64,000 nt of DNA from Idiomarina sp. X4 (GTDB taxonomy: Bacteria > Pseudomonadota > Gammaproteobacteria > Enterobacterales > Alteromonadaceae): positions 1,674,001 to 1,738,000 of the forward strand of contig NZ_CP025000.1 of the NCBI RefSeq assembly GCF_002808045.1. Reading direction: 5' to 3'. The translations under genes and the position numbers were made by a program. Each line of letters opens with the position of its first letter. The stretch's first letter is position 1. Under the pieces are notes generated by a model. The model ran no database searches, was not told where the DNA came from, and saw only the letters and a list, made by a program, of their open reading frames with translations. Positions 13,185 to 31,135 of this stretch are shown here, piece after piece.

Positions 13185-14918
13185 TCAGTTTAAAACCTGT
13201 ACAGGAAACGAAAAGGTGTAAGTTAGGCCGTGACCCGGTTCACTGGTGGCGTCAATATCGCCTTTCAGTGTTTGAGTAACCAAATTACGCACTATATGGG
13301 TACCCAAGCCACTGCCACCATCGTTGAGCTTAGTCGTAAAGAAAGGATCAAACAGCTTGCCGAGGTTCTCTTCAGACAGACCATTACCATTATCTTCGTA
13401 AACAACATGAAGCTCGCTGTCGCGCAGTTCGATATTGATGGTCATGGTACCTTGTTCAATGCCGTCAAAGGCGTGGCGTAACGAATTTAAAATTAAATTA
13501 GTGAATATCTGCGACAACGCGCCGGCAGGGCACCGAATAAATAAGTCATCGGCACAGTTGAGCTCAATTTTATGCAACGTTTTCTTCAAATGGGGCTGCA
13601 ATGACTGAATCAACTCTTCTATGTAGCGCTTCACATTAATATCACGAATGGCGTCAGACGCCTGGTCGACTGCCACTTGCTTAAAGCTGCTGATAAGATC
13701 GGACGCTCTGTGCAAGTTGTTATCGAGTAGGCTTAAGCTTTCTCTGCCTTCCTCGATAAACTTTTGCAGTTGAGGCTGCGTCAGTTCTTTATTGCTTAAC
13801 GCGGTATCCAGTGAATCTAACTTCTCACGCAGATATGAGGCTGCAGTCACACTGATCCCGATGGGTGTGTTCACATCGTGAGTAATGCCCGCGACAAGGC
13901 CCCCCAGTGACGCCATTTTCTCGGATTCAATCAGTTGCTGCTGAGTCTCGCGTAGGTGGTTCAGTGACGACTCGAGTCGCTGGTTAGACTGGCGCAAGGT
14001 ATTTTCCATGGTGCGACGCTGACTAATTTCTCTTTCGAGTTTTTCCTGTCGCATTTCCAGCTCGTTTTTACGCTGCTCAAGGTCGAGCATCACCTGGCTC
14101 AAGCGAGAGGTTTTACGAGCCACTTCCTGCTCTAGAATCGCGTTCTGTTCATCCAGCTGCCGATTCGCTGCTTTCAGTTTATTTTGAGTACGGTCTAAAT
14201 CGGCCTGGTACTCTTCAATATTATCGAGAAGTTGGTTGTAAGCCTGCTCAATCAGTACCAGTTCGTTATTATGCTGGTCTTTTAAGCGGATCCGCGAACG
14301 CTCCAGGTTGTCCAGCCTGAAGCTTTTTATTTGCTGTGTTAAGTCATTGAGAGGGCGGCTTAGCATACGGCTGAAGGCGACCGTAAACAGAATAATTAAG
14401 AAGGTACTTTTTATGAGTGCGTTACCAATAATAAAGCCCAGGCTGACTTTAATCCGGTCAATAGCAATGTCGCGCGTTGAAAACAGGCTAACGTCACCGA
14501 CTTTTGTAGAGTGCCCGGAAAACTCGAAAATAAGTGAACTGTGGTAGCCAAAAACACCATTACGTTCAGGGAGTAAAACGCCCTCACTCGTTTCTTCCGG
14601 TAAGTCAGACATTTCCGAGGTTTCGCCCAGTTGTACCAAAATATTACCGGCGTCATCACGAATTAATACACCGGCAATAGCCGGAATACCAATGAGACCG
14701 TCTGCAATACTGTCAATTTGATCGCTATTAAACTCCCACAGCGAGCGTGTCAGAGAGCCATTAAACGTGCGTTGTTGGTTTTGAAGCTCGGCAATGAGTA
14801 TGCGTTTGGTATCAAAGTATTCCGCACCAATTTGTACTGCGGTAACAATAAATGTCAGTACAAAATAAACGGACAGAACCCGTGTCAGTAGTGATGATGA
14901 AATACTTTTGATGGCCAT
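13185..14918 (-). CDS. Orphan membrane sensor histidine kinase
   Basis: A 577-residue kinase. A first membrane segment (about 9-29), a periplasmic sensor region (30-160) and a second segment (about 163-185) lead into a HAMP-like linker and a long coiled coil (about 235-335). The H-box is GLVAGITHDVNTPIG, then an N-box NLILNSLRHAF and G-boxes DNGNGLSEENLGKLFDPFFTT and GSGLGTHIV. The THDVNTP H-box belongs to the complex hybrid-like class. No response regulator is adjacent. The gene is divergent from the Pho-controlled TonB cluster across a 182-bp shared region, but nothing else ties it to phosphate. Confidence 0.88.
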   Translation of the reverse strand: MAIKSISSSLLTRVLSVYFVLTFIVTAVQIGAEYFDTKRILIAELQNQQRTFNGSLTRSLWEFNSDQIDSIADGLIGIPAIAGVLIRDDAGNILVQLGETSEMSDLPEETSEGVLLPERNGVFGYHSSLIFEFSGHSTKVGDVSLFSTRDIAIDRIKVSLGFIIGNALIKSTFLIILFTVAFSRMLSRPLNDLTQQIKSFRLDNLERSRIRLKDQHNNELVLIEQAYNQLLDNIEEYQADLDRTQNKLKAANRQLDEQNAILEQEVARKTSRLSQVMLDLEQRKNELEMRQEKLEREISQRRTMENTLRQSNQRLESSLNHLRETQQQLIESEKMASLGGLVAGITHDVNTPIGISVTAASYLREKLDSLDTALSNKELTQPQLQKFIEEGRESLSLLDNNLHRASDLISSFKQVAVDQASDAIRDINVKRYIEELIQSLQPHLKKTLHKIELNCADDLFIRCPAGALSQIFTNLILNSLRHAFDGIEQGTMTINIELRDSELHVVYEDNGNGLSEENLGKLFDPFFTTKLNDGGSGLGTHIVRNLVTQTLKGDIDATSEPGHGLTYTFSFPVQVLN

Positions 14919-15012
14919 ATATGAGGTGTGCGTAAGATTTTTGTAAATATAAGCTTAAACTAAATCATTGCTGTTAATAACGCAATAAAGCAAAGCGCTC
15001 CCTCGGAAGCAA

Positions 15013-15068
15013 TTGACACAAAACTGACACACTTTGGTCATCAAGCTGTCACTAAAACTCACTAAAGT
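15013..15068 (+). promoter_or_regulatory. PhoB-dependent promoter with tandem Pho boxes (TonB cluster)
   Basis: Four 7-bp units lie at exact 11-bp spacing: TTGACAC (15013), CTGACAC (15024), TGGTCAT (15035) and CTGTCAC (15046). This makes two Pho boxes back to back. A -10-like hexamer TAAAGT (15063-15068) begins 10 bp after the last unit, the geometry of PhoB-activated promoters that lack a -35. The DUF3450 start codon is 33 bp downstream. Confidence 0.85.
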
Positions 15069-15100
15069 TGCCACAAATTAATTCACAAGGGTCATAACTT

Positions 15101-15901
15101 ATGAAGTTCATTACCTCGGCTGGCGCTTTGGTTTTAAGTTCTGCGCTTTTAGCGCAAGCGCACTCAGCTCCATTACAAGAGCAAGACAAGCTTGAACCGG
15201 TTGTTGAACAAGCCTCTTCAATTAACCAGTCTGCACGTCAATCGCAACTGACCATCGATCAAATCTCAGACAACATGCAAGAGCGCTTGCAGCAGTATAA
15301 ACGCATCATGAAGGAAATTGATGGTTTAAAAGTGTATACCGCGCAGCTCGAACAGCAAATCAATAATCAGCAACAGGAAAAGCAAGACATCAACGACTCA
15401 ATAGACAAAGTCAGTTATGTCGAGCGTCAAATTACTCCACTGATGCTGCGCATGATCGACTCTCTCGAGTCTTTTGTTGAGCTGGACGTTCCCTTCCTGC
15501 AAACCGAGCGTAACGAACGTTTAGCGCAATTAAACGACTTGATGGAGCGCGCCAACGTCGATGTTTCTGAAAAGTTCCGCCGTGTTATGGAAGCGTATCA
15601 AATAGAAGCAGACTACGGCCGCAACATTGAAGCCTACACTGCAGAACATGAGATTAACGGCCAACAGCAAGACGTCACTTTCCTGCGCATTGGTCGGGTC
15701 GCGCTTATTTATAAAACCCGCGACGGTCAGCACCTGGGTATCTGGAACCAACAGGAGCGCAACTGGCAAGAGCTCGATAGTAAGCACTTACCTGCCGTTG
15801 AAGAAGCTATCCGTATAGCCCGAAAACAGTTAGCACCGGACATGCTGATGATGCCTGTCTTCGCTAACAAAGCCGCTACCAACACCGCTGCTGGTCAATA
15901 A
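15101..15901 (+). CDS. DUF3450 periplasmic protein of TonB2-type cluster
   Basis: A 266-residue protein with a Sec signal peptide (cleavage likely after AQAHSA, about residue 23), a coiled-coil region (about 40-115) and a C-terminal DUF3450 part with DVTFLRIGRVALIYKTRDGQHLGIWN. DUF3450 proteins accompany TtpC-ExbB2-ExbD2-TonB2 clusters in vibrios and Alteromonadales; their exact job is not settled, perhaps helping TonB reach the outer membrane. It is first in a six-gene run with gaps of 2-21 bp. Tandem Pho boxes precede it. Confidence 0.85.
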   Translation: MKFITSAGALVLSSALLAQAHSAPLQEQDKLEPVVEQASSINQSARQSQLTIDQISDNMQERLQQYKRIMKEIDGLKVYTAQLEQQINNQQQEKQDINDSIDKVSYVERQITPLMLRMIDSLESFVELDVPFLQTERNERLAQLNDLMERANVDVSEKFRRVMEAYQIEADYGRNIEAYTAEHEINGQQQDVTFLRIGRVALIYKTRDGQHLGIWNQQERNWQELDSKHLPAVEEAIRIARKQLAPDMLMMPVFANKAATNTAAGQ

Positions 15902-15913
15902 GGAGTCACACAC

Positions 15914-17293
15914 ATGAAGCTAACACAACGCATTGTCCAGTGGTTCTCGGTGATTGCGCTGGCAGCGACCTCAAGCGCTGCACTAGCCGCGCCGCTGCCG
16001 CAAGAGCCGATTAACTTAGATCAATTACTACAGCAATTAGAGCAAGGCAAGTTCTCGCAATCAGAGAGTAATAAGCAACGTGAACAGCGTTTCCGCGAAA
16101 AAGAGCAAGAGCAAAAAGCCATGCTCGAAGACGCGATTGCTCAAAGAAACCAGCTGGAGCAACGCGCCGGGCAGCTGGAAACGAACTTTGAACAGAACGA
16201 AGTCGACTTAGGCAACTTAAGCGACACGCTGACCCAGCGCATGGGCTCACTCAAAGAGCTGTTCGGTGTGTTACAGCAGGTGGCGAATGACGCATCAGGC
16301 AAGTTCGACAACTCGGTTATTTCAGCTCAGTATCCGGGTCGCTCCGAAGCGCTTAAGCAGCTGGCAGAAAACATGAGCTCGTCATCGAAACTGGCGTCCA
16401 TTGAAGACATTGAAAGCGTCTGGTTTGCTCTGCAAAAGGAAATGACCGAGTCGGGTAAAGTGGCGGAGTTTACGACAGAGGTAACAGCAGCCAACGGCGA
16501 CAAAGCGGAGCAAGAAGTGGTTCGCGTAGGTGCCTTTAACCTGGTTTCAAACGGCAAATACTTAGAACGTATGAGCTCAACCGGCTCTGTGGCAGAGTTG
16601 GTGCGTCAGCCGTCTGGTCGTTATTTGGACACTGCGGAAGAGATTCAGAAAACCGACAGTGGGGTTGTCACTTTCGGTCTTGATCCGACAGGCGGCTCCA
16701 TCCTTGGTCTATTAGTTCAGGCACCAAGCCTAGGTGAGCGCATCGACCAGGGTGGTACCGTGGGTTATATCATTCTGGCGCTGGGCGCTATTGGCTTGCT
16801 GTTCGCGTTAGAACGTTTCGTGTCACTGATGTTGCTGGGCAACAAAGTGAAGCGTCAGCTTAAGAAAGACAAGCCAAGCCAGGACAACCCGCTTGGTCGA
16901 GTCATGCTGATTAAAGACAAGTACCCGCAAGCCGACACCGAAACGCTGGAGTTGAAGCTTAGTGAAGGTATCTTGCGCGAAGTTCCTAAAATAACGCGCA
17001 ACCTGACGTTCATAAAAATCATTTCTGTGGTCGCTCCGTTGATGGGTCTGTTGGGTACCGTGACCGGTATGATCAATACCTTCCAGGCGATAACGCTGTT
17101 CGGCACAGGTGACCCGAAACTGATGGCAGGTGGTATCTCACAAGCCCTGGTAACAACCGTACTTGGCTTGGTGGTCGCAATACCCATGACCTTACTGTTT
17201 GCCACCTTACACACTCGCAGTAAAAACCTGATTCACATATTGCAGGAGCAGGCGTCCGGCATTATTGCGGAGCGCTCAGAGCGAGGAGAGTAA
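15914..17293 (+). CDS. TtpC-like MotA/TolQ/ExbB proton channel protein with long periplasmic domain
   Basis: A 459-residue ExbB-related protein. It has a signal peptide (1-25), a coiled-coil periplasmic region (about 30-120), a globular part up to about residue 260, and a C-terminal MotA/TolQ/ExbB domain with three membrane helices (about 285, 370 and 415), including VVAPLMGLLGTVTGMINTFQAI and the GISQALVTTVLGLVVAIP helix. The size and layout match TtpC, the fourth component of Vibrio TonB2 systems. AAGGAG precedes the ATG, 12 bp after the DUF3450 gene. Confidence 0.87.
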   Translation: MKLTQRIVQWFSVIALAATSSAALAAPLPQEPINLDQLLQQLEQGKFSQSESNKQREQRFREKEQEQKAMLEDAIAQRNQLEQRAGQLETNFEQNEVDLGNLSDTLTQRMGSLKELFGVLQQVANDASGKFDNSVISAQYPGRSEALKQLAENMSSSSKLASIEDIESVWFALQKEMTESGKVAEFTTEVTAANGDKAEQEVVRVGAFNLVSNGKYLERMSSTGSVAELVRQPSGRYLDTAEEIQKTDSGVVTFGLDPTGGSILGLLVQAPSLGERIDQGGTVGYIILALGAIGLLFALERFVSLMLLGNKVKRQLKKDKPSQDNPLGRVMLIKDKYPQADTETLELKLSEGILREVPKITRNLTFIKIISVVAPLMGLLGTVTGMINTFQAITLFGTGDPKLMAGGISQALVTTVLGLVVAIPMTLLFATLHTRSKNLIHILQEQASGIIAERSERGE

Positions 17294-17295
17294 CC

Positions 17296-17826
17296 GTGTT
17301 ATTTCTCATCGAGTTTAATAATGCGATTAGAGATTTCATCGAGGCCGGCGGGCAAGTCCTGCTGGTCATCGGAATCCTCATTTTTAGTATGTGGTTAATG
17401 ATTATCGAGCGCATTTTTTACTACCTGAAAGGGCATCGTGCGCGCGTTAAAGACACGCTAAAGCGCTGGCAGCAACGTGAAGACAAGTCGTCCTGGAACG
17501 CAGAGCAAATTCGTCAGGCGATGATCTCACGCGTCAGTCTGGCATTGGGCGGCAATTTGCCGGTCATTAAAGCTCTGGTTGCCTTATGTCCTTTATTAGG
17601 GCTCATGGGCACCGTGACCGGCATGATTGAAGTGTTCGACGTTATGGCAGTAACCGGAACTGGCAGCGCCCGCTCGATGGCATCGGGCGTATCAAAAGCC
17701 ACTATCCCGACAATGGCGGGCATGGTTGGCGCACTGTCCGGCGTATTCGCCGCCACCTGGCTACAGCGCACCACCCGTCGCGAGCGCATGAAGCTGGAAG
17801 ACAAAATACTTTTAGAGCGTCACTAA
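17296..17826 (+). CDS. exbB: ExbB-type proton channel protein (TonB2 system)
   Basis: A 176-residue ExbB with three membrane helices (about 18-38, 92-112 and 135-158) and the conserved PLLGLMGTVTGMIEVFDVMAVTG and SGVSKATIPTMAGMVGALSGVFAATW segments. With ExbD it harvests the proton gradient for TonB. The start is GTG, 2 bp after the TtpC-like gene, with GAGGAGAG as ribosome binding site. It is short, as ExbB2 proteins are compared with E. coli ExbB (244 residues). Confidence 0.92.
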   Translation: MLFLIEFNNAIRDFIEAGGQVLLVIGILIFSMWLMIIERIFYYLKGHRARVKDTLKRWQQREDKSSWNAEQIRQAMISRVSLALGGNLPVIKALVALCPLLGLMGTVTGMIEVFDVMAVTGTGSARSMASGVSKATIPTMAGMVGALSGVFAATWLQRTTRRERMKLEDKILLERH

Positions 17827-17847
17827 GGTGGGGCTGAGGAAATAACT

Positions 17848-18255
17848 ATGAAACAGCATTTTGCCAACTTAATTGAAGAAGAAGAGAGCAACATCGACAT
17901 GACGCCCATGCTGGATGTGGTGTTCATTATGCTGATTTTCTTCATTGTTACCGCATCTTTTGTCAAAGAGGCGGGTATCGATGTAAACCGCCCTGACGCA
18001 GCAACAGCGGTGCAAAAAAACCGTGCCAATATTCTGGTTGCCATTAGTGACAACAACGAAATTTGGATAAACAAGCGTCAGGTTGATGTGCGTGCGGTGC
18101 AGGCCAATATCGAGCGCTTATACGCAGAGAACCCGCAAGGTTCTGTGGTGATTCAGGCCGACGAAGAGTCGAACACACGTGTCCTCATTAAAGTAATGGA
18201 CGCAGCGCGAGCCGCTGGTGTTTATGACGTATCTGTTGCAACCGACGAAGAGTAA
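17848..18255 (+). CDS. exbD: ExbD-type biopolymer transport protein
   Basis: A 135-residue ExbD: a short cytoplasmic N-terminus, one membrane helix (about 20-40) carrying the essential aspartate in NIDMTPMLDVVFIMLIFFIVTASF, and a periplasmic domain to the end (VVIQADEESNTRVLIKVMDAARAAGV). It works with ExbB and TonB in proton-driven energy transfer to the outer membrane. The gene follows exbB after 21 bp and precedes tonB after 6 bp. Confidence 0.95.
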   Translation: MKQHFANLIEEEESNIDMTPMLDVVFIMLIFFIVTASFVKEAGIDVNRPDAATAVQKNRANILVAISDNNEIWINKRQVDVRAVQANIERLYAENPQGSVVIQADEESNTRVLIKVMDAARAAGVYDVSVATDEE

Positions 18256-18261
18256 CCCGCA

Positions 18262-18867
18262 ATGAGACTTTTGGCAGCATTATTGGTCGCCGCGTTTGTC
18301 ACTATTGGACTGTTTTACTTAATGCAGTCGCTAATAAGCGGTGGCGAAGGGGCAATGAGCGAGCCGCCGCGAGGCAGTGTGCTGGACTTTGTGCGCACAC
18401 CAGAGCCTGAAGAAGTACAGGAGAAAGAGCGCAAGCCAGAGCGCCCACCAGAGCCTGAACAGCCGCCCGAAGACTTACCGCAACCGCAAGTGGACAACGA
18501 TATTGCCGATGCTGATAGCGGCTCGGGTTATGACTTCTCGGCCAGTATGGATGCCGGCGCTGACATTGGTAATGGCATGTCATTGCAAGCCAGCGACGGT
18601 GAATATCTGCCTATTGTAAAAGTGCAGGCGGCTTACCCTCGACGTGCTTTACAGCGTGGCATCGAAGGTTATGTGGTGGTGGAATTTACTGTGACCAAAC
18701 AAGGTTCAGTGCGCGATCCTGTCGTTGTTGAGGCCGAGCCGGAAGGCATTTTTGATCAGGCCGCCATGGATGCGGTGCTGAAATTCAAATACAAACCACG
18801 GGTCATTGATGGTGAAGCGGTTGAAGTTGACGGAGTCAGAAACCGCATGACCTTTGAAATGAACTAA
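18262..18867 (+). CDS. tonB: TonB (TonB2-like energy transducer)
   Basis: A 201-residue TonB. One N-terminal membrane helix (about 4-24) is followed by a Pro/Glu/Lys-rich spacer (about 45-75) and the TonB C-terminal domain (about 110-201) with YPRRALQRGIEGYVVVEFTV and FKYKPRVIDGEAVE. It is shorter than E. coli TonB (239) and resembles TonB2. TonB spans the periplasm and opens outer-membrane receptors; no TonB-dependent receptor gene is in this window. Confidence 0.93.
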   Translation: MRLLAALLVAAFVTIGLFYLMQSLISGGEGAMSEPPRGSVLDFVRTPEPEEVQEKERKPERPPEPEQPPEDLPQPQVDNDIADADSGSGYDFSASMDAGADIGNGMSLQASDGEYLPIVKVQAAYPRRALQRGIEGYVVVEFTVTKQGSVRDPVVVEAEPEGIFDQAAMDAVLKFKYKPRVIDGEAVEVDGVRNRMTFEMN

Positions 18868-18878
18868 TTGGGTGACTT

Positions 18879-20156
18879 ATGAACATGAAATTTGTGGTTA
18901 TTGCCGCCTTAAGTGGCTGGATAGCATTAACGCAGCCCCTTCTTGCACAACAAAGAGGTGCGCAACAAACCGAACGTGTGCCAGCACTGCGCGAAAAAGT
19001 ATATGGTCAGCTGGCTCGGGCGCAGGAACAAGCCGACAACGGTAATGTTCAGGAAGGGCTCAGCATACTGTCAGACATTGAAGGTAAAGCCGACAGTATG
19101 AACAGTTATGAACGTGCCATGCTCTGGAACTTCTATGGTTTTATGTATTACGAGCAGGATCAAATAAGCCAGGCCATTAACTATTTTGAGAAAGTCGTGA
19201 ATGAATCGCCAATTCCCGAGTCGCTCAAAAAAAGTACCCTGTTCAGCCTGGCTCAGCTGGCGTTAAGCGAAGGTCAGTATCAACGCTCCGTAGAATTTCT
19301 GGGGCGCTGGGAAGCGTTGGCCGAACAAGACGAGCTGGGCAAAGCCTGGGTATTAAAAGCGCAAGCCTTTTATCAGTCGGGAGACTTTACTAAAGCGCTG
19401 CCGCTTATTGATAAAGCCATTGCTAACGCCGACGCCAACAATAAAACGCCCGACGAAAACTGGTTAATACTCAAACGTGCACTGCACTATGAACTGGAGC
19501 AAACTGAACAAGTCGCCAAAGTCATGGAACGCCTGGTCACTGACTACAGTAAACCGGAATACTGGCTGCAACTGGCAGGCGTTTACGCGCAACTGGAGCA
19601 GGACAAAAAACAGTTAGCGGTTTTGGAAGCGGCGAATCAACAAGGATTTATTGAAAAAGCCAGCGACTGGCGTCAGCTCGCACAAGCGTACTACTTTAAT
19701 GAACTGCCGTTTAAAGCAGCTGAGACATTAAGCAACGCCATGCAAAAAGGAACGGTTGAAACGAACGTAGACAACCTGAAGTTTGTGGCACAAGCCTACG
19801 CTCAGGCAAAAGAGTACGAATTGGCCATTCAGGCCTATGAGAAAGCGTCAGAGCAGGTCGACCATGGCGACTTTGCCGCGCAAATTGCACAACTGCATTT
19901 AAACCTGAACAATAATGACCAAGCCATTAAGTACGTTGAACTAAGCCGTAATAAAGGCCAGGTTTCAAACCCGGGACATTTGCATTTAGTAGAAGGAATG
20001 GCGGCGTTAAATTTAAAAGACTACAAACTGGCGCTACAAGCCTTTGAACAGGCAAGCGAATATGAAAAAACAGCAGCAACAGCAAAGCAGTGGTTGAAGT
20101 ACGCAAAGGCACAACACCGACAAAAGGAGCAGTTGGCTTCGTTAATTGACTTATAG
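18879..20156 (+). CDS. TPR-repeat protein of TonB2-type cluster
   Basis: A 425-residue secreted or periplasmic protein with a signal peptide (about 1-24, LLAQQRG) and about eight TPR-like helical pairs, for example QISQAINYFEKVVNESPIP, ALPLIDKAIANADANNK and YELAIQAYEKASEQV. TPR proteins of this kind close the DUF3450-TtpC-ExbB-ExbD-TonB cluster in vibrios and Alteromonadales; the function is unproven, presumably scaffolding. It starts 11 bp after tonB. Its stop codon abuts the Pho box of the porin gene. Confidence 0.85.
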   Translation: MNMKFVVIAALSGWIALTQPLLAQQRGAQQTERVPALREKVYGQLARAQEQADNGNVQEGLSILSDIEGKADSMNSYERAMLWNFYGFMYYEQDQISQAINYFEKVVNESPIPESLKKSTLFSLAQLALSEGQYQRSVEFLGRWEALAEQDELGKAWVLKAQAFYQSGDFTKALPLIDKAIANADANNKTPDENWLILKRALHYELEQTEQVAKVMERLVTDYSKPEYWLQLAGVYAQLEQDKKQLAVLEAANQQGFIEKASDWRQLAQAYYFNELPFKAAETLSNAMQKGTVETNVDNLKFVAQAYAQAKEYELAIQAYEKASEQVDHGDFAAQIAQLHLNLNNNDQAIKYVELSRNKGQVSNPGHLHLVEGMAALNLKDYKLALQAFEQASEYEKTAATAKQWLKYAKAQHRQKEQLASLIDL

Positions 20157-20190
20157 CTGTCATAAAGCTGTAACAAAAAAGACATAGAAT
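20157..20190 (+). promoter_or_regulatory. PhoB-dependent promoter of the porin gene
   Basis: The Pho box 20157-20174 reads CTGTCAT-AAAG-CTGTAAC, nearly the E. coli consensus. A -10-like TAGAAT (20185-20190) begins 10 bp after it. A separate TATAAT at 20234-20239 may belong to a second promoter. The porin ATG is at 20285. Confidence 0.88.
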
Positions 20191-21330: not shown

Positions 21331-22242
21331 ATGACCAACCTGGCGGTACTTGGCTTTTACCTACTTATTGGTTTTATTCTAAAACGCTCCGGGAAGTGCC
21401 CCGACAACACGGCCGAAGTTCTCAATTTATACGTTATTTATGCCGCGCTACCCGGCGTTATTTTCAGCAAAGTACCAGGCCTTGAATTTTCCACTGACTT
21501 ACTTATTCCGGTTATTACTCCCTGGGTACTTCTTACGTTCAGCGCAGTGTTTATCTTCCTTATTGGCAGGGCACTGAAATGGCGCAAAGAAATTATCGGC
21601 GCCCTGTTAGTTTGTGTTCCTTTAGGGAATACTTCTTTCTTCGGTTTTCCGATGATAGAAGCTTTTTACGGCAGTGACGCGATAGCCTATGGCTTGCTCT
21701 ATGACCAATTTGGCTCTTTCTTCGGTTTAGCTATTTACTCAACCGTTATTATTGCGCTTTACAAAGACCAGAACGAGACGCCAACCATAACAGGCGTATT
21801 GAAAAAAATTGTGACGTTCCCGCCATTTATTGCGTTAGTGCTGGCGCTCTTGACCAAAAACCTGAATTATCCTGATGTTTTTCAGCGCTTGATTGAGTCA
21901 TTAGCCGTTACGCTAGTGCCGGTCATTATGATAGCCGTGGGTTTTCAGCTGAAGTTCCGTTTACCCAAGGGCAGTAAAACACCATTGGCCATTGGCTTGT
22001 TAACCAAGCTGGTACTCATGCCGGCAGTTGCTATGTTACTGCTGTTCAGTTTTGGGTTTGATAACACATTGATTCAGGTCACCGTTTTTGAAGCTGCCAT
22101 GCCACCAATGATAACCGCAGGAGCGGTCGCTATTATGGCCGGGTTAGCACCGCGGCTGTCAGCTGCTATGGTCGGTTATGGCATATTGTTGGCTTTTATC
22201 ACGCTGCCGTTAACCTATGAATTAATGCAGTATTTGGCCTAA
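21331..22242 (+). CDS. AEC family (auxin efflux carrier-like) transporter
   Basis: A 303-residue inner-membrane protein with about ten hydrophobic segments and the AEC-family pattern: LNLYVIYAALPGVIFSKV near the start, GNTSFFGFPMIEAFYG in the middle, EAAMPPMITAGAVAIMAG near the end. Family members export small organic acids or amino acids in bacteria; the substrate here is unknown. It stands between the porin and phoB, both apparently Pho-controlled, but has no Pho box of its own. Confidence 0.85.
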   Translation: MTNLAVLGFYLLIGFILKRSGKCPDNTAEVLNLYVIYAALPGVIFSKVPGLEFSTDLLIPVITPWVLLTFSAVFIFLIGRALKWRKEIIGALLVCVPLGNTSFFGFPMIEAFYGSDAIAYGLLYDQFGSFFGLAIYSTVIIALYKDQNETPTITGVLKKIVTFPPFIALVLALLTKNLNYPDVFQRLIESLAVTLVPVIMIAVGFQLKFRLPKGSKTPLAIGLLTKLVLMPAVAMLLLFSFGFDNTLIQVTVFEAAMPPMITAGAVAIMAGLAPRLSAAMVGYGILLAFITLPLTYELMQYLA

Positions 22243-22338: not shown

Positions 22339-23025
22339 ATGTCGCGTAGAATTCTAATTGTAGAAGATGAAGCACCTATTCGTGAGATGTTGAGCTTTGT
22401 TATGGAGCAACACGGCTATCAAGCAGTCGAAGCTCATGATTTTGACGCCGCTGTCGGTAAAATTGCCGAGCCATACCCCGACATGGTATTGCTTGACTGG
22501 ATGCTTCCCGGTGGCTCAGGCATTCAACTCGCCAAAAAAATTAAAGGCGATGACTTCACCCGCAATATTCCTATTATTATGTTGACCGCTCGTGGTGAAG
22601 AAGAAGATAAAATTAAAGGGCTGGAAGTAGGGGCCGACGACTATATTACTAAGCCGTTCTCGCCAAAAGAGCTCATGGCTCGCATGCGTGCCGTATTTAG
22701 ACGTGTTGCGCCAACAGTATTAGACGAGCCATTGGAAGTTGAAGGGCTTAAGCTGGACCCCGTATCGCACCGCATTTCAGTCGCCGACAACAGCGTCGAC
22801 ATGGGGCCAACTGAATTTAAGCTCCTGCACTTTTTTATGACACACCCAGAGCGGGTGTACAGCCGCGAACAGTTGCTGGACCACGTGTGGGGCACAAACG
22901 TGTACGTTGAAGACAGAACGGTTGATGTCCACATTCGCCGCTTACGCAAAGCTCTGGCTGACCATGGTTACGACCGTTTAATCCAGACCGTTCGTGGAGT
23001 TGGTTATCGTTTCTCAAGTCGCTAA
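22339..23025 (+). CDS. phoB: Phosphate regulon response regulator PhoB
   Basis: A 228-residue OmpR-family regulator, the usual PhoB length. The receiver domain (1-120) starts [18 protein letters not shown], with the phospho-acceptor aspartate in [13 protein letters not shown] and the conserved lysine in [13 protein letters not shown]. The winged-helix domain (about 130-225) ends [12 protein letters not shown] and [10 protein letters not shown]. PhoB binds Pho boxes such as those mapped in this window. phoR follows after 17 bp. Confidence 0.96.
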
Positions 23026-23042: not shown

Positions 23043-24338
23043 ATGGACAGAGACTATTCAAACTGGCAGTCGCTGCGTAATCTCGCTCTCTTTTTGCTGC
23101 CGTTTATTTTTGTTGGTTGGCTGTTCGATGTTCTCTGGCCACTGCTGACGTTTGCCTTACTGGGCCTGGTTTGCTGGCATTACTTTTATCAGCAAAAGCT
23201 CATTAAGTGGCTGTGGCAAAGTCGTACGCTCATGCCGCCATCGGCGCCGGGTAGCTGGTCCTATATTTACGACGGCATTTATCGTTCGCAACGGCGCAGT
23301 CAAAAGCGGCGCAAGTCGTTAGCCCGTTTGTTAAGACGCTTCCGGGAGGCGGCAGAAGCATTGCCGGACGCAGCTATTGTGTTTCGTGCAGACGGTGCTC
23401 TGTTGTGGAGCAACAAACTCGCGCAATTTTATTTTGGCCTTCGTTGGCCGGACGACGCAGGACAACGACTTTCCAACCTTATTCGTCATCCGGAATTCTC
23501 GGTATACCTTAGTAAAGGGCAGTTTGACGATGCTTTGACGATACCCTCACCGGTGCGTGACAGTCTCGACATCGAAATTCGCATTATGCCTTACAGCGAA
23601 GACCAGTACCTATTAGTCGCACGCGATGTTACCCAGGTTAAACGCCTGGACTCTATGCGGCGTGAATTTGTTGCTAACGTATCGCACGAATTAAAAACGC
23701 CACTGACTGTGTTGCAGGGTTATCTGGAAATGATGGAAGAGCCGGAGCAAACACCACCGGCGATGCTAAAAAAAGCAGTCGAGAACATGAATGCACAAAG
23801 TGATCGCATGGCCAATCTGGTTGACCAACTACTGGTTCTGTCACGCATGGAAACGCCAAGTGATGATGTGTTTGATCACGAAGTTAACGTACCTGCTTTA
23901 CTGGAACAACTGCAAACAGAAGCTCATCGCCTCAACGAACAGAAGCAGCATAACCTTATATTCAAGGTTGACCCTATTCGTATCTATGGCAAAGAGTCAT
24001 TGCTGCGCAGCGCCATGCAGAACCTGATCACGAACGCCATTCGTTACACGCCGGAGGGCGGCGAAATAGAGGTGTGCTGGAAAGAAACCTCAGGTGGTGT
24101 CGAGTTCAGTGTCACCGATAATGGCAAAGGCATACCCGCGCAGCACCTACCGCGATTGACTGAACGTTTTTATCGTATTGATGAAGACCGTAACAGTGCC
24201 AGTGGTGGAACTGGGCTGGGGTTATCTATTGTGAAACAAGCCATCGAACATCATAACGCTCAACTGGATATTAGCAGTACACCGGGCAAAGGCAGTTGTT
24301 TTGCATTTCAACTGCCGCACGGATTAATTAAGTCATAA
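23043..24338 (+). CDS. phoR: Phosphate regulon sensor histidine kinase PhoR
   Basis: A 431-residue PhoR, matching the E. coli length. Two N-terminal membrane helices with almost no periplasmic loop (about 10-50), a PAS-like sensor (about 95-200), the phospho-accepting histidine in REFVANVSHELKTPLTVLQGYLEMMEE and the ATP-binding N and G boxes (NLITNAIRYTPEGG, DNGKGIPAQHLPRLTERFYR, GGTGLGLSIVKQA). Lack of a periplasmic sensor fits sensing through PstSCAB-PhoU, all encoded just downstream. Confidence 0.96.
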   Translation: MDRDYSNWQSLRNLALFLLPFIFVGWLFDVLWPLLTFALLGLVCWHYFYQQKLIKWLWQSRTLMPPSAPGSWSYIYDGIYRSQRRSQKRRKSLARLLRRFREAAEALPDAAIVFRADGALLWSNKLAQFYFGLRWPDDAGQRLSNLIRHPEFSVYLSKGQFDDALTIPSPVRDSLDIEIRIMPYSEDQYLLVARDVTQVKRLDSMRREFVANVSHELKTPLTVLQGYLEMMEEPEQTPPAMLKKAVENMNAQSDRMANLVDQLLVLSRMETPSDDVFDHEVNVPALLEQLQTEAHRLNEQKQHNLIFKVDPIRIYGKESLLRSAMQNLITNAIRYTPEGGEIEVCWKETSGGVEFSVTDNGKGIPAQHLPRLTERFYRIDEDRNSASGGTGLGLSIVKQAIEHHNAQLDISSTPGKGSCFAFQLPHGLIKS

Positions 24339-24382: not shown

Positions 24383-24439
24383 ACTTATCATCGAAGAACG
24401 ATTCCTTGAATTTAGACAAAACCCACAGAGGTGAAAAAC

Positions 24440-25420
24440 ATGTTTCAATCAACTTTGAACAAGACATTAACTGGTTTAGTCGCAGCGGGCACGTTACTGT
24501 TCAGCTCGCTGGCAGCAGCAATTGACGACCTACCAGAGTACGAAAAAGTCAGCGGTTTATCAGGCAACCTATCGTCAGTGGGCTCTGACACCCTGGCCAA
24601 CATGATGACGTTCTGGGGCGAAGAGTTTAAGCGCATGTACCCAAGCGTTAACATTCAAATTCAAGCGGCAGGCTCTTCAACTGCGCCGCCGGCATTAACC
24701 GAGGGGACGTCAAGCTTTGGCCCAATGAGCCGCGCTATGAAGTCAAAAGAAATTGAAGCGTTTGAGAAGCGTCACGGCTACAAGCCAACCCCAGTGCGAG
24801 TTGCTATCGATGCGTTAGCGGTTTTCGTACATAAAGACAACCCAATTGAAGGTTTATCCATTGCGGAAGTCGACGCAATATTCTCGTCAACTCGTAAATG
24901 TGGTGCGAACCAGCAAGTCAACCGTTGGAGTGATCTGGACTTAGGCGGTGACTGGGCTAACCGCGACTTACAGCTTTACGGCCGTAACTCGGTATCCGGT
25001 ACTTATGGTTACTTTAAAGAAGTGGCACTGTGTGACGGTGACTTCCGTGCAAACGTCAACGAACAACCCGGCTCAGCGTCAGTTGTTCAGTCAGTCTCTA
25101 CATCACTGAATGCGATTGGTTACTCAGGTATTGGTTATGTCACCTCGGGTGTGAAAGCGGTACCGATTGCTAAGGGCGACGGCGACGACTTTATTGAAGC
25201 GTCACGTGAAGCCGCATTGGCAGGCAAATATCCGCTGGCACGTTTCCTCTACGTATACGTGAACAAGCACCCGAACAAACCATTAGGTAAAGCAGAAGCT
25301 GAGTTCATGAAAATGATTCTGTCAAAACAAGGCCAGGACATTGTGAACAAAGACGGCTATATCGGCTTGCCGAAGCAAGTGGTCGAAGCAGAGCTGAAAA
25401 AACTCGGCCTTAGTCACTAA
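24440..25420 (+). CDS. pstS: Phosphate ABC transporter substrate-binding protein PstS
   Basis: A 326-residue periplasmic phosphate-binding protein. The signal peptide ends near SSLAAAIDD. Phosphate-contact motifs are visible: [37 protein letters not shown] and [15 protein letters not shown]. The ATG at 24440 is preferred to the GTG at 24431 because AGAGGTG, its ribosome binding site, covers that GTG. It is the high-affinity front end of the Pst system. A strong hairpin terminator follows, then a second Pho box before pstC, so pstS can be made in excess. Confidence 0.95.
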
Positions 25421-25436
25421 AAAATTACGTCATAAC

Positions 25437-25473
25437 AAAGCCGGTAGTTCTTTGAAACTGCCGGCTTTTTTCT
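25437..25473 (+). terminator. Intrinsic terminator after pstS
   Basis: AAAGCCGGTAGTTC and GAAACTGCCGGCTTT form a long stem with one or two imperfect pairs and a short loop, followed by a T-run. It separates pstS from pstC. Confidence 0.88.
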
Positions 25474-25507
25474 ATTTTGACAGTTTGGTGAAGAAAATAT
25501 GACGGTA

Positions 25508-25541
25508 CTGTAACAGTACTGTCATAAAACTTTACTACACT
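25508..25541 (+). promoter_or_regulatory. PhoB-dependent promoter of pstCAB-phoU
   Basis: CTGTAAC-AGTA-CTGTCAT (25508-25525) is the Pho box, and TACACT (25536-25541) begins 10 bp later as the -10. The pstC ATG is at 25586. Confidence 0.87.
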
Positions 25542-25585
25542 ATCACTCAGTTAAATTTGAAGTCATTTTAGAGTCCGAGGTCACA

Positions 25586-27853
25586 ATGGCAACACAATCT
25601 GCCCAACAGCTGTCGGCCAATCGCATGCGATTGTTCAAAGACCGTTTCGCACGTTATGGCGTAACGGCTGGCGGCGTTATGGTATTGGTCGCACTGCTTT
25701 TGATCTTCTTTTACCTGCTTTATGTGGTGCAGCCGATATTCGAGTCGGTGAGCTTGAAAAAAGTGAACAGTTTTAACTTGCCTGAGGCGGGGCAAGTTGA
25801 AGCGGTTGGTATGGAAGAGCAGGCAGAAATTGGTTATCGCTTTTTACAAAGCGGTGAGCTGCAGTTTTTCTCGCTTATCAACAAAAACGATCGTCGTTCA
25901 GGTGACATATTACTGAGTGAGACCTTTGTGGGCTCAGAAGACATCACCAGCTTTGCTAAGACTCTGCCAGTGAATAAGCAATACGCTTATGGGTTAGCGT
26001 CGGGTGAAGCGCTGGTTGTTGAGCCTAAGTTCTCCGTTACTTTTCCGGAAACGGCGGCAACTTCCGTAACCGATAAAGTGGAACGGCTTATTACGCCAAG
26101 GTTTGAAGTGAAAAACGACGGCGAGCCATTAGTTATTGATGAACAAGGCCGGGCACTTGAGAAACTGGCTTATGAGACCGACGGCGACGGTATGTTATTT
26201 GCTGCCGCCGTTGAAAAAAGCACTTTGTTGATCACGCACTTTGTTGCCGAAGAAAACTTTATGACAGGCGCCGTCACATTGACGCCGAACTACACCGAAG
26301 TTCCTTTAAATACCGCTATTGATGACCTGGTTGTGACGCCAGACTTACGACAGGTTATTGCTCGCCGTGGCAACCGTGTGCATGTATTTGATATCTCGAT
26401 TAGCGGTAACGTTACTGAGCGTGAATTGTTGCCTATGCGTACGCGCGAGCTGGGTAATGCTACCGGCATGTATCTATTGGCTGGCGCGTCATCGGTATTG
26501 TTAACCCACGACTCGGGCAAAGTCTCACAATGGTTTGAAGTACCGGGTGACGACGGACGCCAGTATCAATTTATTCGTAGCTTCGACGCCGGTTCACCGG
26601 TAACTAACGTTGAAGTCGAATATTATCGCCGTACGTTCTACACGTTATCTGAAAACGGTGACATGAACATTTTCCACACCACGGCAGAAGCTGACTTATA
26701 CCGAGGCAAACCCGCCGATGCGGAAGTTCAAGCTGTCATGGTCGATCCGCGAGCCAATTACCTATTAATGAAAACAGCAGACGGTTATGGCCTTTATGAT
26801 GTCGATAACGAACACCCGGAAGTCAGCTGGAGCGGTTTGTGGCAGGAAGTCTGGTACGAAGGTTACCCTGAACCAGACTACACTTGGCAGTCAACGTCAG
26901 GTTCTGACGACTTTGAGTCTAAGTTCAGTTTGGTACCTATTTCGTTCGGTACGATAAAGGCCGCCGCTTACGCGATGCTATTTGCGGTGCCGATTGGCTT
27001 AGCCGCAGCGGTTTACACGGCGTATTTTATGTCGCCATCGGTGCGTAAGTACGTTAAACCGACCGTGGAAATTATGGAGGCATTGCCAACGGTTATTCTT
27101 GGTTTCCTTGCGGGTTTATGGTTGGCCCCTTTAGTGGAGGCCTACCTCCCGGGGTTTGTCGCCGTGCTACTACTGGTGCCACTGGCCGTTATCTTAATGG
27201 CGGCGCTTTGGAGCCAGTTGCCGACTCATATTAAGAGCAAGGTGAATGACGGCCGTGCTGCGGTACTGCTTATTCCTGTTGTTTTGGCGGTGGGCTGGTT
27301 CTCCTTTGAAATAAGCACTTGGGTTGAGCACGTGGTGTTTGACGGTGATGCCCGTCGTTTTATCACCAATGAACTGGGCGTTACCTTCGACCAACGTAAC
27401 TCGCTGGTGGTGGGTATTGCGATGGGCTTTGCGGTTATCCCAACCATTTTCTCCATCGCTGAAGATGCCGTATTCAGCGTACCTAAGCACTTGTCCAACG
27501 GTTCATTAGCACTGGGCGCTACGCCGTGGCAAACGTTGACCAAAGTGGTGTTACTTACTGCCAGTCCGGGAATTTTCTCGGCAGTGATGATGGGGCTTGG
27601 TCGTGCTGTGGGTGAAACCATGATAGTGCTCATGGCCACGGGTAACACGCCTATTATGGACTGGAACATTTTCGAAGGTATGCGCACCTTGTCTGCCAAC
27701 ATTGCGGTTGAAATGCCAGAGTCGGAAGTGGGCAGCTCGCATTACCGTATTTTGTTCCTGGCAGCCTTTGTGTTGTTCATATTCACCTTCTTCTTTAACA
27801 CCATTGCTGAATTTGTGCGCCAACGCTTGCGCGACAAATACAGCTCAATGTAA
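25586..27853 (+). CDS. pstC: Phosphate ABC transporter permease PstC (enlarged)
   Basis: A 755-residue permease, more than twice the E. coli PstC (319). One membrane helix (about 25-50) is followed by a large periplasmic insertion (about 55-445) that looks like a beta-propeller-type domain by its repeated short strands, and then by the permease core (about 450-750), with the inner-membrane-component motif ALGATPWQTLTKVVLLTASPGIFSAVMMGLGRAVGETMIV. Enlarged PstC proteins occur in vibrios and Alteromonadales; the role of the extra domain is unknown. pstA follows after 22 bp. Confidence 0.92.
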   Translation: MATQSAQQLSANRMRLFKDRFARYGVTAGGVMVLVALLLIFFYLLYVVQPIFESVSLKKVNSFNLPEAGQVEAVGMEEQAEIGYRFLQSGELQFFSLINKNDRRSGDILLSETFVGSEDITSFAKTLPVNKQYAYGLASGEALVVEPKFSVTFPETAATSVTDKVERLITPRFEVKNDGEPLVIDEQGRALEKLAYETDGDGMLFAAAVEKSTLLITHFVAEENFMTGAVTLTPNYTEVPLNTAIDDLVVTPDLRQVIARRGNRVHVFDISISGNVTERELLPMRTRELGNATGMYLLAGASSVLLTHDSGKVSQWFEVPGDDGRQYQFIRSFDAGSPVTNVEVEYYRRTFYTLSENGDMNIFHTTAEADLYRGKPADAEVQAVMVDPRANYLLMKTADGYGLYDVDNEHPEVSWSGLWQEVWYEGYPEPDYTWQSTSGSDDFESKFSLVPISFGTIKAAAYAMLFAVPIGLAAAVYTAYFMSPSVRKYVKPTVEIMEALPTVILGFLAGLWLAPLVEAYLPGFVAVLLLVPLAVILMAALWSQLPTHIKSKVNDGRAAVLLIPVVLAVGWFSFEISTWVEHVVFDGDARRFITNELGVTFDQRNSLVVGIAMGFAVIPTIFSIAEDAVFSVPKHLSNGSLALGATPWQTLTKVVLLTASPGIFSAVMMGLGRAVGETMIVLMATGNTPIMDWNIFEGMRTLSANIAVEMPESEVGSSHYRILFLAAFVLFIFTFFFNTIAEFVRQRLRDKYSSM

Positions 27854-27875
27854 TCCGCGGAATTGAGGTTTAACG

Positions 27876-29537
27876 ATGAAAAAGTGGTTTAGAACCGGAA
27901 AACCCTGGATTTGGCTAACGGCTGGCTCGGTCAGCGTCAGTCTAATTGCCGTCATTGGGCTGGTTATCATGATTGGCTGGCGCGGTTTGTCATTCTTCTG
28001 GCCATCCGCCATTCATGAAATGGACATTATGCAGGCCGATGGCAGCACCAAGCACATTATTGGTGAGGTGTACGACTCGGAAGTGGTTCCGACCACTCGC
28101 TTGCCTCAGTCAATGATTGAGCTAGCCGACATAGAGTCAGAAACCGTCACGCGTTACCTCATGAAAATTGGTAACCGCGAATACGTGCCGCTCGACTTTA
28201 CCTGGGTACTGGAGTCACTGGTTACTGAAGACACCACGCCAAAAGACATGGCGGTCATTGAGCGCAGTAAAGACGGTAACTTCTACGGTCGCATTACTGC
28301 CGTGACCGAAAATGGTGACGTTGTTGCGTCGCAAAGTGACGACAACTTTCGTGAAGTCATGTTCGCACGGGTTGAACGAGCGGTCGAGCTGAATGAACAA
28401 GCCATGAGTTTACAGGAAGGCGAAATATCGTCTATTAACTACCAGTTGAATGAGCTCACGCTGGAACGCCGTCGCCTGGAGTTACAGGGCGAATTAACCG
28501 ATCAGGCTATCGCCGAACTGCAGGCACAGCGCGAACAATTAAATGCCGATTATCAGGTTTACGAAAAAGAGCTGTTCGACTTACGTGAGCAGGCACAGCG
28601 CGACGCGTTAGTGGTTAAAGACTTTCGTGGCGAAGACGTCAAAGTGCCAATGTACCGGGTGTTGGACGTTAACTTCCCAAACGACATGGGCTTTTTCGCC
28701 AAGCTGGGGCACTTTTTCCAGCAAATTGGCAAGTTTGTGAGTGAAGATCCACGTGAAGCTAACACCGAAGGCGGTGTATTCCCTGCTATTTTCGGTACCG
28801 TCTTTATGGTGCTGCTAATGTCCATTATTGTCACGCCGTTTGGTGTTGTGGCAGCGGTTTACCTGCACGAATATGCAGGAAAGAACCCAGTCACCAAGCT
28901 CATTCGCATTGCGGTTATTAACCTGGCGGGTGTACCGTCGATTGTTTACGGGGTGTTTGGCCTTGGCTTCTTCGTATACATGGTCGGTGGCAGTTTGGAC
29001 CAAATTTTCTATCCGGAAGCGCTGCCGAACCCAACCTTTGGGACGCCGGGTGTGTTGTGGTCGGCGGTTACCTTGGCAATTTTGACATTGCCGGTAGTTA
29101 TCGTCTCAACCGAAGAAGGTTTGTCACGTATTCCGTCGTCGTTGCGAGAAGGCAGCTTGTCGCTAGGCGCCACTAAGTGGGAAACCATTTGGCGTATTGT
29201 TTTGCCGATGGCGTCACCGGCTATTATGACGGGGCTTATTTTGGCTGTTGCACGAGCCGCGGGTGAAGTCGCACCGCTCATGCTGGTGGGTGTGGTGAAG
29301 TCGGCGCCGATGCTGCCGGTTGATGGCAACTTCCCGTACTTACATTTAGACCGTAAGTTTATGCACTTAGGCTTTCATATTTACGACGTTGGCTTCCAAA
29401 GCCCGAACGTTGAAGCGGCACGGCCGCTGGTTTACGCCACCTCATTTTTACTGATTACCGTCATTGTGGGTCTGAACCTGACGGCCATTGGTGTGCGTAA
29501 CCATTTACGTGAAAAATACCGCTCACTTGAGCACTAA
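27876..29537 (+). CDS. pstA: Phosphate ABC transporter permease PstA (enlarged)
   Basis: A 553-residue permease against 296 in E. coli. A first helix (about 12-35) is followed by a periplasmic insertion of about 240 residues whose second half is a coiled coil (about 165-245, rich in Glu, Gln and Leu). The permease core (about 300-545) contains [13 protein letters not shown] and the EAA-type loop [32 protein letters not shown]. It pairs with PstC, which is enlarged in the same place, so the two extra domains probably face each other or PstS in the periplasm (inference). Confidence 0.92.
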
Positions 29538-29583
29538 AGTTTACAAAGAAGATTTTGATGAATTAGCGAAAGGGTCAGAATTT

Positions 29584-30402
29584 ATGATTTCGGTAAACCC
29601 GAGTACAAGCAACATGGAAAAGCTGGACTTACACAACTTGCCAGCTGAGCAAACCGCGTTGGATATTAAGAACCTGGACTTATATTACGGTGAAGATCAG
29701 GCGTTGCATGATATTTCCATGCGCATTCCAAAAAATCGCGTCACGGCGTTCATCGGGCCGTCAGGTTGCGGTAAATCGACACTGTTGCGGTGCATTAACC
29801 GCATGAACGATCTGGTGGAAATTTGCCGTATTGACGGCGAAATAGAGCTGCACGGCCAGAACATATACGACAAAAACGTTGATGTTGCTGCGCTAAGACG
29901 CCGCGTTGGTATGGTGTTTCAGCGTCCTAACCCGTTTCCTAAGTCCATTTATGAAAACGTGGTCTATGGCTTGCGCTTGCAAGGCGTAAAAGATAAACGT
30001 GTATTAGACGAAGCGGTAGAAACGTCGCTTCGCGGCGCGGCTCTGTGGGACGAGGTTAAAGATCGTCTGAACGCCAGTGCGTTCAGTCTGTCGGGTGGTC
30101 AGCAGCAACGTTTGGTTATCGCGCGCTCTATTGCTATTGAACCTGAAATTTTACTGCTCGACGAGCCAACCTCAGCGCTTGACCCAATTTCTACGTTAAC
30201 GATTGAAGAGCTTATTACCGAGCTGAAAGAAAAATTCACAGTGGTAATTGTTACCCATAACATGCAGCAGGCGGCGCGTGTGTCAGACCAGACCGCATTT
30301 TTGTACATGGGTAAAATGATAGAATACGCAGACACTGACACGTTATTTACGACACCGTCGGAAAAGCAAACCGAAGACTACATTACCGGTCGTTACGGCT
30401 AA
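29584..30402 (+). CDS. pstB: Phosphate ABC transporter ATP-binding protein PstB
   Basis: A 272-residue ABC ATPase that drives phosphate import. Walker A is GPSGCGKST, the signature is LSGGQQQRL, Walker B with the catalytic glutamate is [14 protein letters not shown], and the H-loop is [10 protein letters not shown]. The start at 29584 is chosen because an open frame further upstream overlaps the pstA 3' end without family similarity; an ATG at 29614 is the alternative. The product also transmits phosphate status to PhoR with PhoU. Confidence 0.94.
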
Positions 30403-30412
30403 GGAGAGTGTT

Positions 30413-31135
30413 ATGGATAAAATGAACATGAGTAAGCACATTTCCGGTAAGTTCAATGAAGAGCTTGAGGCTGTGCGTAACCGGGTATTGAGCATGGGCG
30501 GAATGGTCGAGCAGCAAATAAGCGATGCGCTGGAAGCCATTCAAAAAGGCAACGTTGAGCTGGCAGAAAAAGTCCTGAGCAGTGACCACAAAATTAATAA
30601 GCTGGAAGTGCAGATTGATGAAGAGTGTGTGCACATTATTGCGAAACGTCAGCCGGCAGCCAGTGACTTACGTTTGGTCATTGCTATTATCAAAACCATT
30701 GCCGACTTAGAGCGCATTGGTGACGAAGCGGAGCGTATTGCCAAAGTAGCAAAAGAGAGCTTCAACAAAGATCAGCAGCAGTTGTTAGTGAGTCTGGAGA
30801 ACTTAGGTCAGCACATTCTCAGCATGCTGCGCAAAGTGCTCGATGCCTTTGCACGTATGGACCTGGAAGCGGCCTACGACGTACACCAACAGGACGAGCA
30901 GGCCGACCGCCAGTACGAAGCACTGACGCGTCAGCTAATGACTTACATGATGGAAGACTCACGCTCGATACCGAAGATTATGGATGTACTGTGGTCAGCG
31001 CGTTCATTAGAGCGCATGGGTGACCGTTGTCAGAACATTGCCGAGTACATTATCTTCTTTGTAAAAGGCAAAGACGTGCGCCATGTCTCACCGGAGAGCA
31101 TGGAACGCACGGTTTTGGGGAAAAAAGCTGACTAA
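30413..31135 (+). CDS. phoU: Phosphate signalling protein PhoU
   Basis: A 240-residue PhoU made of two similar three-helix bundles, each with the metal-binding E/D pattern (IKTIADLERIGDEAERIAK and LWSARSLERMGDRCQNIAEYIIFF). PhoU keeps PhoR inhibitory when phosphate is plentiful. AAGGAG lies 6 bp before the ATG, and the gene begins 10 bp after pstB. Its TAA overlaps the TAG of the convergent serA by 4 bp (CTAA). No strong terminator is seen there; a CCGGGC/GCCCGG hairpin lies inside serA at about 31144-31163. Confidence 0.95.
   Translation: MDKMNMSKHISGKFNEELEAVRNRVLSMGGMVEQQISDALEAIQKGNVELAEKVLSSDHKINKLEVQIDEECVHIIAKRQPAASDLRLVIAIIKTIADLERIGDEAERIAKVAKESFNKDQQQLLVSLENLGQHILSMLRKVLDAFARMDLEAAYDVHQQDEQADRQYEALTRQLMTYMMEDSRSIPKIMDVLWSARSLERMGDRCQNIAEYIIFFVKGKDVRHVSPESMERTVLGKKAD

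Follow-up and report, generated by a model that had tools for sequence, protein, structure and literature searches.

The window analysed here, a stretch of 64,000 nucleotides from the 2,616,716-base genome of Idiomarina sp. X4, contains a six-gene TonB2-type operon (positions 15101-20156) preceded by a predicted PhoB-dependent promoter. The operon encodes the complete set of TtpB (DUF3450), TtpC, ExbB, ExbD, TonB and TtpD (tetratricopeptide repeat, TPR) proteins in a single run on the forward strand, with intergenic gaps of 2-21 nt, and the products belong to the families expected for a TtpC-type system. The first gene, ttpB (15101-15901), matches PF11932 with 290 bits (E 1e-86). It is followed by ttpC (15914-17293), which encodes an ExbB-type channel protein with a PF01618 (MotA_ExbB) domain and a long N-terminal half that is weakly DUF3450-like (PF11932, below the cut-off), by exbB (17296-17826, PF01618), which has a GTG start, and by exbD (17848-18255, PF02472). 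The tonB gene (18262-18867) encodes a protein of 201 aa matching PF03544 (TonB_C, 69.9 bits) and TIGR01352 above their cut-offs, and ttpD (18879-20156) a protein of 425 aa matching TPR families. The family matches and coordinates bear out the order DUF3450-TtpC-ExbB-ExbD-TonB-TPR given in an earlier, sequence-only reading of this DNA. Among the matches listed, the nearest named relative of TtpC is that of I. piscisalsi, with 98% identity.

The same six components, with the DUF3450 protein first and the TPR protein last, make up the Vibrio TonB2 system (TtpB2-TtpC2-ExbB2-ExbD2-TonB2-TtpD2); this likeness is one of component set, not of direct sequence comparison with the named Vibrio proteins. 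According to the text on that system (PMC6957404), all six proteins of Vibrio TonB2 are required; TtpB and TtpD are the names given to the DUF3450 and TPR proteins of V. vulnificus, both of which proved necessary there. The same text describes a Fur box before the Vibrio operon, which serves siderophores. At the Idiomarina cluster, by contrast, the promoter is of a four-half-site Pho type, no Fur box is present and the linked genes are phosphate genes.

The predicted PhoB-binding array (15013-15052, forward strand) consists of four 7-bp half-sites at exact 11-bp steps: TTGACAC (15013-15019), CTGACAC (15024-15030), TGGTCAT (15035-15041) and CTGTCAC (15046-15052). A -10-like hexamer, TAAAGT (15063-15068), lies on the same strand 10 nt past the last half-site, as the sequence-only reading had it. 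Direct half-site repeats spaced by 11 bp ahead of a -10 element are a feature of the Pho regulon. The array has a four-unit score of 22.1, a value that none of 2000 dinucleotide-shuffled versions of positions 14919-15100 attained (shuffle maximum 18.4). In an alignment of 14 Idiomarinaceae promoters the half-sites are conserved above their surroundings, and the motif ACTAAAG at the hexamer is conserved in all nine Idiomarina promoters. The best match to a Fur box before ttpB is 11/19, which is the level of shuffled DNA.

For wider comparisons a Pho matrix was trained on 21 distinct 18-mers, picked by eye as the best matches before the porin, phoB, pstS and pstC genes of the window and of the relatives' loci L001-L010. 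The training sites included none from a TtpB, lipoprotein or receptor promoter. Weak best matches were omitted (porin, L003, L005 and L008-L010; phoB, L002 and L003; pstC, L004, L005 and L008-L010) and, as a consequence, the scores of the porin, phoB, pstS and pstC promoters are not independent. The matrix gives 21.0 and 15.2 bits at the operon promoter, on which it had not been trained. At a threshold of at least 13 bits it marks eight places in the window, namely two at the operon promoter, one each before the porin gene, phoB, pstS and pstC, and two at 13.1 bits; mononucleotide shuffles yield 0.95 on average.

Conservation of the box was assessed in the best 80 of 418 loci confirmed in a TtpC scan. 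The matrix reaches at least 14 bits before TtpB on the forward strand in 47 of the 80 loci and on the reverse strand in four, compared with 22/610 control upstreams from the same loci. These controls precede open reading frames (ORFs) of at least 150 aa from which lipoprotein and receptor genes were not excluded, which makes the comparison conservative. All 27 Idiomarinaceae loci (L001-L027) score at least 14.2 bits. Outside Pseudoalteromonas the box reaches at least 14 bits in 46/50 loci, the exceptions being L029, L030, L066 and L075, and it spans Idiomarinaceae, Alteromonadaceae and Colwelliaceae. Of the 30 Pseudoalteromonas TtpB upstreams, just one has a box of at least 14 bits and 12 have one of at least 10 bits (as do 23/273 controls of that genus), with scores of 5.3-16.4 to which mainly the first and last half-sites contribute matches. 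In these loci (e.g. L031-L032) an altered four-unit array is retained, with strong outer but not inner half-sites; the four-unit score is at least 17 in 30/30 of the upstreams vs 32/273 controls.

The box was also sought in 32 comparison copies, hand-chosen from the matches, namely 12 paralogs found in the same family and 20 copies belonging to other families of the order. A score of at least 12 bits is found before one of them (L268), at a site far upstream (-287). A tree was built of 68 TtpB proteins, comprising those of 34 of the 80 loci, the window and its paralog, and the 32 comparison copies. All 36 Pho-type rows fall in one clade with support of 100/100, and L268 is the only comparison copy that groups with it. 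Four Pseudoalteromonas rows lie inside the clade, which suggests that the box of this genus is weak through decay or an altered form of the array and not through a different origin. By these sequence comparisons the Pho box is not a general TonB2 property, and a PhoB promoter is the rule in a well-supported TonB2 clade outside Pseudoalteromonas. The split in Pseudoalteromonas weakens the Pho claim for that genus, not for the Idiomarina locus.

It could be argued that the boxes are due to chance or are leftovers, and that the cluster is constitutive. The 7-bp half-sites are short, the box is weak in Pseudoalteromonas, and a loose pattern, CTGTCAT-N4-CTGTCAT with three mismatches, is about as frequent in the genome as its reversed control (117 + 119 vs 120 + 94 matches, i.e. 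236 vs 214). The loose pattern was uninformative, and stricter patterns and the matrix were therefore used. The outcome of the dinucleotide shuffles, the restriction of conservation to one clade and the adjoining -10-like hexamer all speak against a fortuitous or relict origin, which we consider highly improbable.

The surroundings of the operon are rich in phosphate genes, all on the forward strand. A Pho box (20157-20174; 21.2 bits, a site of the matrix training set) precedes a porin gene (Porin_4, PF13609; 20285-21250), which adjoins the cluster in Idiomarinaceae loci, with no match in L014. Next to the porin lies a gene for an AEC-type permease (21331-22242), assigned by synteny and by a similarity to TIGR00946 that is below the curated cut-off. 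It is followed by phoB (22339-23025; TIGR02154 above cut-off, Pho site at 22273), phoR (23043-24338; TIGR02966 above cut-off) and, by family matches, pstS, pstC, pstA, pstB and phoU (24431-31135; Pho sites at 24349 and 25508). The names of PhoB, PhoR, PstB and the PstS family are above NCBIfam cut-offs, and a cognate PhoB-PhoR pair is thus encoded in the genome. The order TonB2-porin-AEC permease-phoB-phoR-pstS-pstC recurs in L001-L010. In L011-L027 and L030 the permease is retained, as is the porin except in L014, and phoB was not found within the compared stretch. Eight Alteromonas-type loci (L045, L051, L057, L067, L068, L072, L078 and L079) carry phoR and/or pstS upstream of the cluster. 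These two different arrangements of the cluster with phoBR/pst argue against a frozen accident. The proximity of a Pho-controlled porin and Pst genes had been recognised in the sequence-only reading, and its placement of the cluster in the phosphate-starvation regulon gains support from the box outside Pseudoalteromonas, its absence from paralogs and from copies outside the family, and the two linkages.

Other features of this region are a divergent sensor histidine kinase gene (13185-14918, reverse strand; weak CHASE5/HAMP matches), which adjoins the cluster in L001-L010 and, in L011-L027 and L030, occurs in the 10-kb flank, and the unusual size of PstC (755 aa) and PstA (553 aa), encoded at 25586-29537 on the forward strand, which are far longer than the transporter domain found by Pfam. 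Elsewhere in the window, a GmrSD-type restriction enzyme gene (56284-57981, reverse strand) lies near a HipA-like gene (58631-59956, forward strand).

In the whole genome, two strict Pho patterns gave 8 and 11 matches (reversed controls, 5 and 8) at 14 distinct places. Four of these lie in the Pho region of the window, and four precede phoH, an alkaline phosphatase gene, a lipoprotein-receptor gene pair and an Oar-like receptor gene. The places at phoH, alkaline phosphatase, pstS, pstC, the porin and the operon serve as positive controls. Five places (103082, 1299003, 1757506, 1984345 and 2448284) fall inside ORFs or at their margins, where no phosphate link is evident (no family library was searched for these ORFs), and were treated as chance; the best match of the loose pattern (2114315), inside an ORF reading like a PAS/chemotaxis protein, was dropped. 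A strict site is also located 105 nt upstream of a gene for a methyl-accepting chemotaxis protein (L136:1942-3351, reverse strand, at ∼2.25 Mb), a possible sign of phosphate taxis.

The barrel family of TonB-dependent receptors has 24 matches in the genome, corresponding to 23 genes (two pieces at 1623 kb were counted once). A search among them for Pho-boxed receptors, suggested by the sequence-only reading, identified two loci. At the first (L114), a gene for a 535-aa lipoprotein is followed by one for a 903-aa TonB-dependent receptor, with a Pho box in the Idiomarina genome itself. Relatives of the lipoprotein show a forward Pho site of at least 14 bits in 15 of 20 fetched upstreams and a reverse site in five (inverted half-sites in the promoter); two of these upstreams, L246 and L247, are incomplete at the stretch edge. 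At the second locus (L116), four half-site-like units at 11-bp steps precede the Oar-like receptor gene, and 10 of 20 fetched relatives have a forward site of at least 14 bits, with two on the reverse strand. The Oar-like gene (L116:1247-4454) is split into two frames, while matched relatives mostly have one frame of ∼1050-1110 aa; a second receptor gene (L125:2379-4440) is split likewise. Real decay or an assembly error may explain these splits.

Another receptor gene (L115:17-4107, ∼576.0-580.1 kb) is followed by genes for a PhoD-like phosphatase and a BetI-type TetR protein. Its Pho box is weak (10.9 bits). Across 30 loci of this type, at least 10 bits are reached in 10 (the Idiomarina one among them) on the forward and in one on the reverse strand, and at least 14 bits in three; in 21/30 the 1.5-kb receptor flanks contain a PhoD-like match. 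Pho control of this receptor is possible on the basis of these sites. A palindrome-like stretch, TTTTAATTGAACGGTCAATTAAAA, lies beside the weak Pho site.

The lipoprotein-receptor pair shows a close association with the operon in relatives. Receptor (E ≤1e-100) and Pho-type TtpC (E ≤1e-135) were called in 97 and 90 of 118 family genomes, respectively; 89 genomes have both, one has TtpC only, eight the receptor only and 20 neither. Both genes lie on one contig in 74/89 genomes and within 30 kb of each other in 67/89, always on the same strand (67/67); in 39 they are at most 3 kb apart. A control receptor family, the one beside PhoD, is no more than 30 kb from TtpC in 0/38 cases, of which just 12 have both on the same contig. 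Within the 80 loci the receptor of the pair is located in the ∼10-kb flank upstream in 27 and downstream in 28 (Pseudoalteromonas), and it was not found in these flanks in 25, including L001-L010 and some short contigs. In Pseudoalteromonas the pair is thus close to the cluster despite the weak TtpB box. The lipoprotein upstreams in these loci score at least 10 bits in 41/54 and at least 14 bits in 20/54.

The fullest loci, three of Alteromonas type (L067, L068 and L078), show the order phoB-phoR-pstS-lipoprotein-receptor-TtpB-TtpC-ExbB-ExbD-TonB-TPR. In a gammaproteobacterium of another order (L333/L328), TtpB-TtpC-ExbB-ExbD-TonB-TPR-receptor-lipoprotein form one run; here TtpB matches DUF3450 with 117.7 bits, the run is preceded at ∼100 nt by a Pho site of 18.2 bits, and two genes away there is a phoB-like gene that likewise has a Pho site. 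A second lipoprotein copy in a gammaproteobacterium (L334:11242-12849) has its own Pho site (17.0 bits) and is followed by a PhoH-like gene, with a weakly PhoD-like gene on the opposite strand. Judged by gene linkage and promoters, the lipoprotein and the 903-aa receptor are the probable partner of the operon.

This linkage also bears on the possibility that the operon encodes a TonB2 system of general use or for iron, merely raised by PhoB, for instance to co-ordinate phosphorus and iron uptake, with siderophore or heme receptors as clients. The accessible text on the characterised homolog, Vibrio TonB2, describes an iron-serving system with a Fur box (PMC6957404), and the text available of another report describes PhoB control that relieves iron limitation (PMC11126600). 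The Idiomarina operon promoter, however, has no Fur box, and the genes linked with the cluster include pst genes and a receptor pair carrying a Pho box. Moreover, the host possesses a second complete six-gene TonB2 system (L129:5028-10169), with neither a Pho box nor a Fur box found in its promoter, that could serve other receptors. The six MotA_ExbB-family matches of the genome comprise two per TonB2 cluster, TolQ and one at the window start, and there are three TonB_C matches. Fur-like sites are present in two of the out-of-family copies (L281, 14/19; L282, 16/19). A general or iron-serving role appears unlikely for the Pho-type operon.

The operon might instead power a function other than import under phosphate starvation, such as signalling or the release of secreted proteins, as may be the case for exbB2-exbD2-tonB4 of Pseudomonas aeruginosa. 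In the available portions of two reports (PMC4971064, PMC7035377), this TonB energiser is transcribed under phosphate starvation and PhoB, and is called uncharacterised. The same portions mention no TtpB, TtpC or TtpD, and describe a requirement for sigma-VreI and a location among two-partner secretion genes. The neighbours in the window are instead a histidine kinase gene, rdgC, porin, permease and pho/pst genes, not sigma/anti-sigma or two-partner secretion genes, and the gene linked in relatives encodes a plug-plus-barrel receptor. A non-import function is, in our view, quite improbable.

We consider it probable that the operon encodes a PhoB-controlled TonB complex that imports a phosphorus ligand, with the Pho-boxed lipoprotein-receptor pair as its main client. 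This interpretation builds on the promoter, gene content, clade, linkage and co-occurrence as read from genome sequences. Upon phosphate starvation, PhoR-PhoB would switch on the six genes through the four-half-site promoter. By homology to Vibrio TonB2, TtpC-ExbB-ExbD would harvest the proton gradient, and TonB together with TtpB and TtpD would transmit force to the outer membrane. There the lipoprotein, which has a right-handed beta-helix fold and probably sits at the cell surface, and the 903-aa receptor, linked to the cluster in relatives, would capture and import a phosphorus-containing ligand whose size or scarcity keeps it from being taken up through the porin. In the periplasm, phosphatases belonging to this regulon (PhoA-family, perhaps PhoD-like) may then free phosphate for uptake by PstSCAB. 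The TonB-driven import of phosphorus compounds suggested in the sequence-only reading finds support, as a hypothesis, in the linked Pho-boxed receptor.

Several observations weigh against this interpretation. In the Idiomarina genome the cluster and the receptor pair are ∼1.16 Mb apart, and 0/10 of L001-L010 have the pair within 10 kb. The Fisher p of 3e-15 for the co-occurrence overstates the association, because genomes of relatives are not independent samples. A TonB protein can serve more than one receptor, and the host has a second complete TonB2 system. The Oar-like Pho-boxed receptor also lies 15-19 kb from TtpC in two genomes, G070 and G102 (not a systematic count), which implies that the partner need not be unique. 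The low scores and poorly matching inner half-sites of Pseudoalteromonas belong here as well. Finally, the fold of the lipoprotein alone does not name a substrate. For the lipoprotein, its receptor and DUF3450, no informative relative emerged from sequence searches of solved structures, and a Foldseek structure search alone gave four matches at E ≤0.001, all with low TM-scores.

Parallels to parts of the proposed system exist in other bacteria. Vibrio TonB3 has the same six-component TtpC-type set and, in the excerpted text (PMC6957404), is reported to be inactive in iron transport and induced in human serum or glycerol minimal medium, with no Pho link stated there; it provides a precedent for a non-iron use of this architecture. 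The phosphate utilisation system (PUS) of Flavobacterium (PusCD; a cluster of FI lipoprotein and Tbdt) likewise combines a receptor and a lipoprotein and is induced by phosphate depletion, but belongs to another phylum, and the available text mentions no dedicated TtpC-type energiser (PMC8115612). The Idiomarina pair, a lipoprotein gene beside a receptor gene with Pho boxes, may be a PUS-like arrangement, and the fold is similar in kind. In Caulobacter, PhoB is described as controlling TonB receptors (PMC11208175), and the phosphate-starvation lipoprotein ElpS/Cc0171 is encoded beside a TonB-dependent receptor (PMC2996285). A point of difference is that the ElpS genes adjoin type II secretion genes, and the accessible text does not address an energiser. 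The expression table of a Bacteroides fragilis phoB study contains an ExbB-family gene (PMC3547664).

Among the matches listed in a literature search no Pho-controlled TtpC-type TonB system appeared, subscription papers being mostly outside its coverage. The operon is a TonB2 system with an unusual predicted regulator and a probable dedicated receptor, the latter out of view of the sequence-only reading. We lean, if only slightly, towards the broader view that a phosphorus-dedicated TonB complex evolved in a marine gammaproteobacterial lineage as its equivalent of the phosphate utilisation systems known from Bacteroidota, importing oligomeric or polymeric phosphorus; candidate ligands would be nucleic acid, polyphosphate, a phosphorylated glycan or a lipid headgroup.

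TonB complexes are usually studied as machinery for iron, heme and cobalamin. If the interpretation is correct, a Pho-regulon TonB2 clade would extend across Idiomarina, Pseudidiomarina, Alteromonas, Thalassotalea and relatives, and one energiser would be set aside for a single nutrient in a genome that has 23 genes for TonB-dependent receptors. Common marine copiotrophs would then spend proton-motive force on importing phosphorus across the outer membrane, and the uptake of marine organic phosphorus would gain a concrete receptor.

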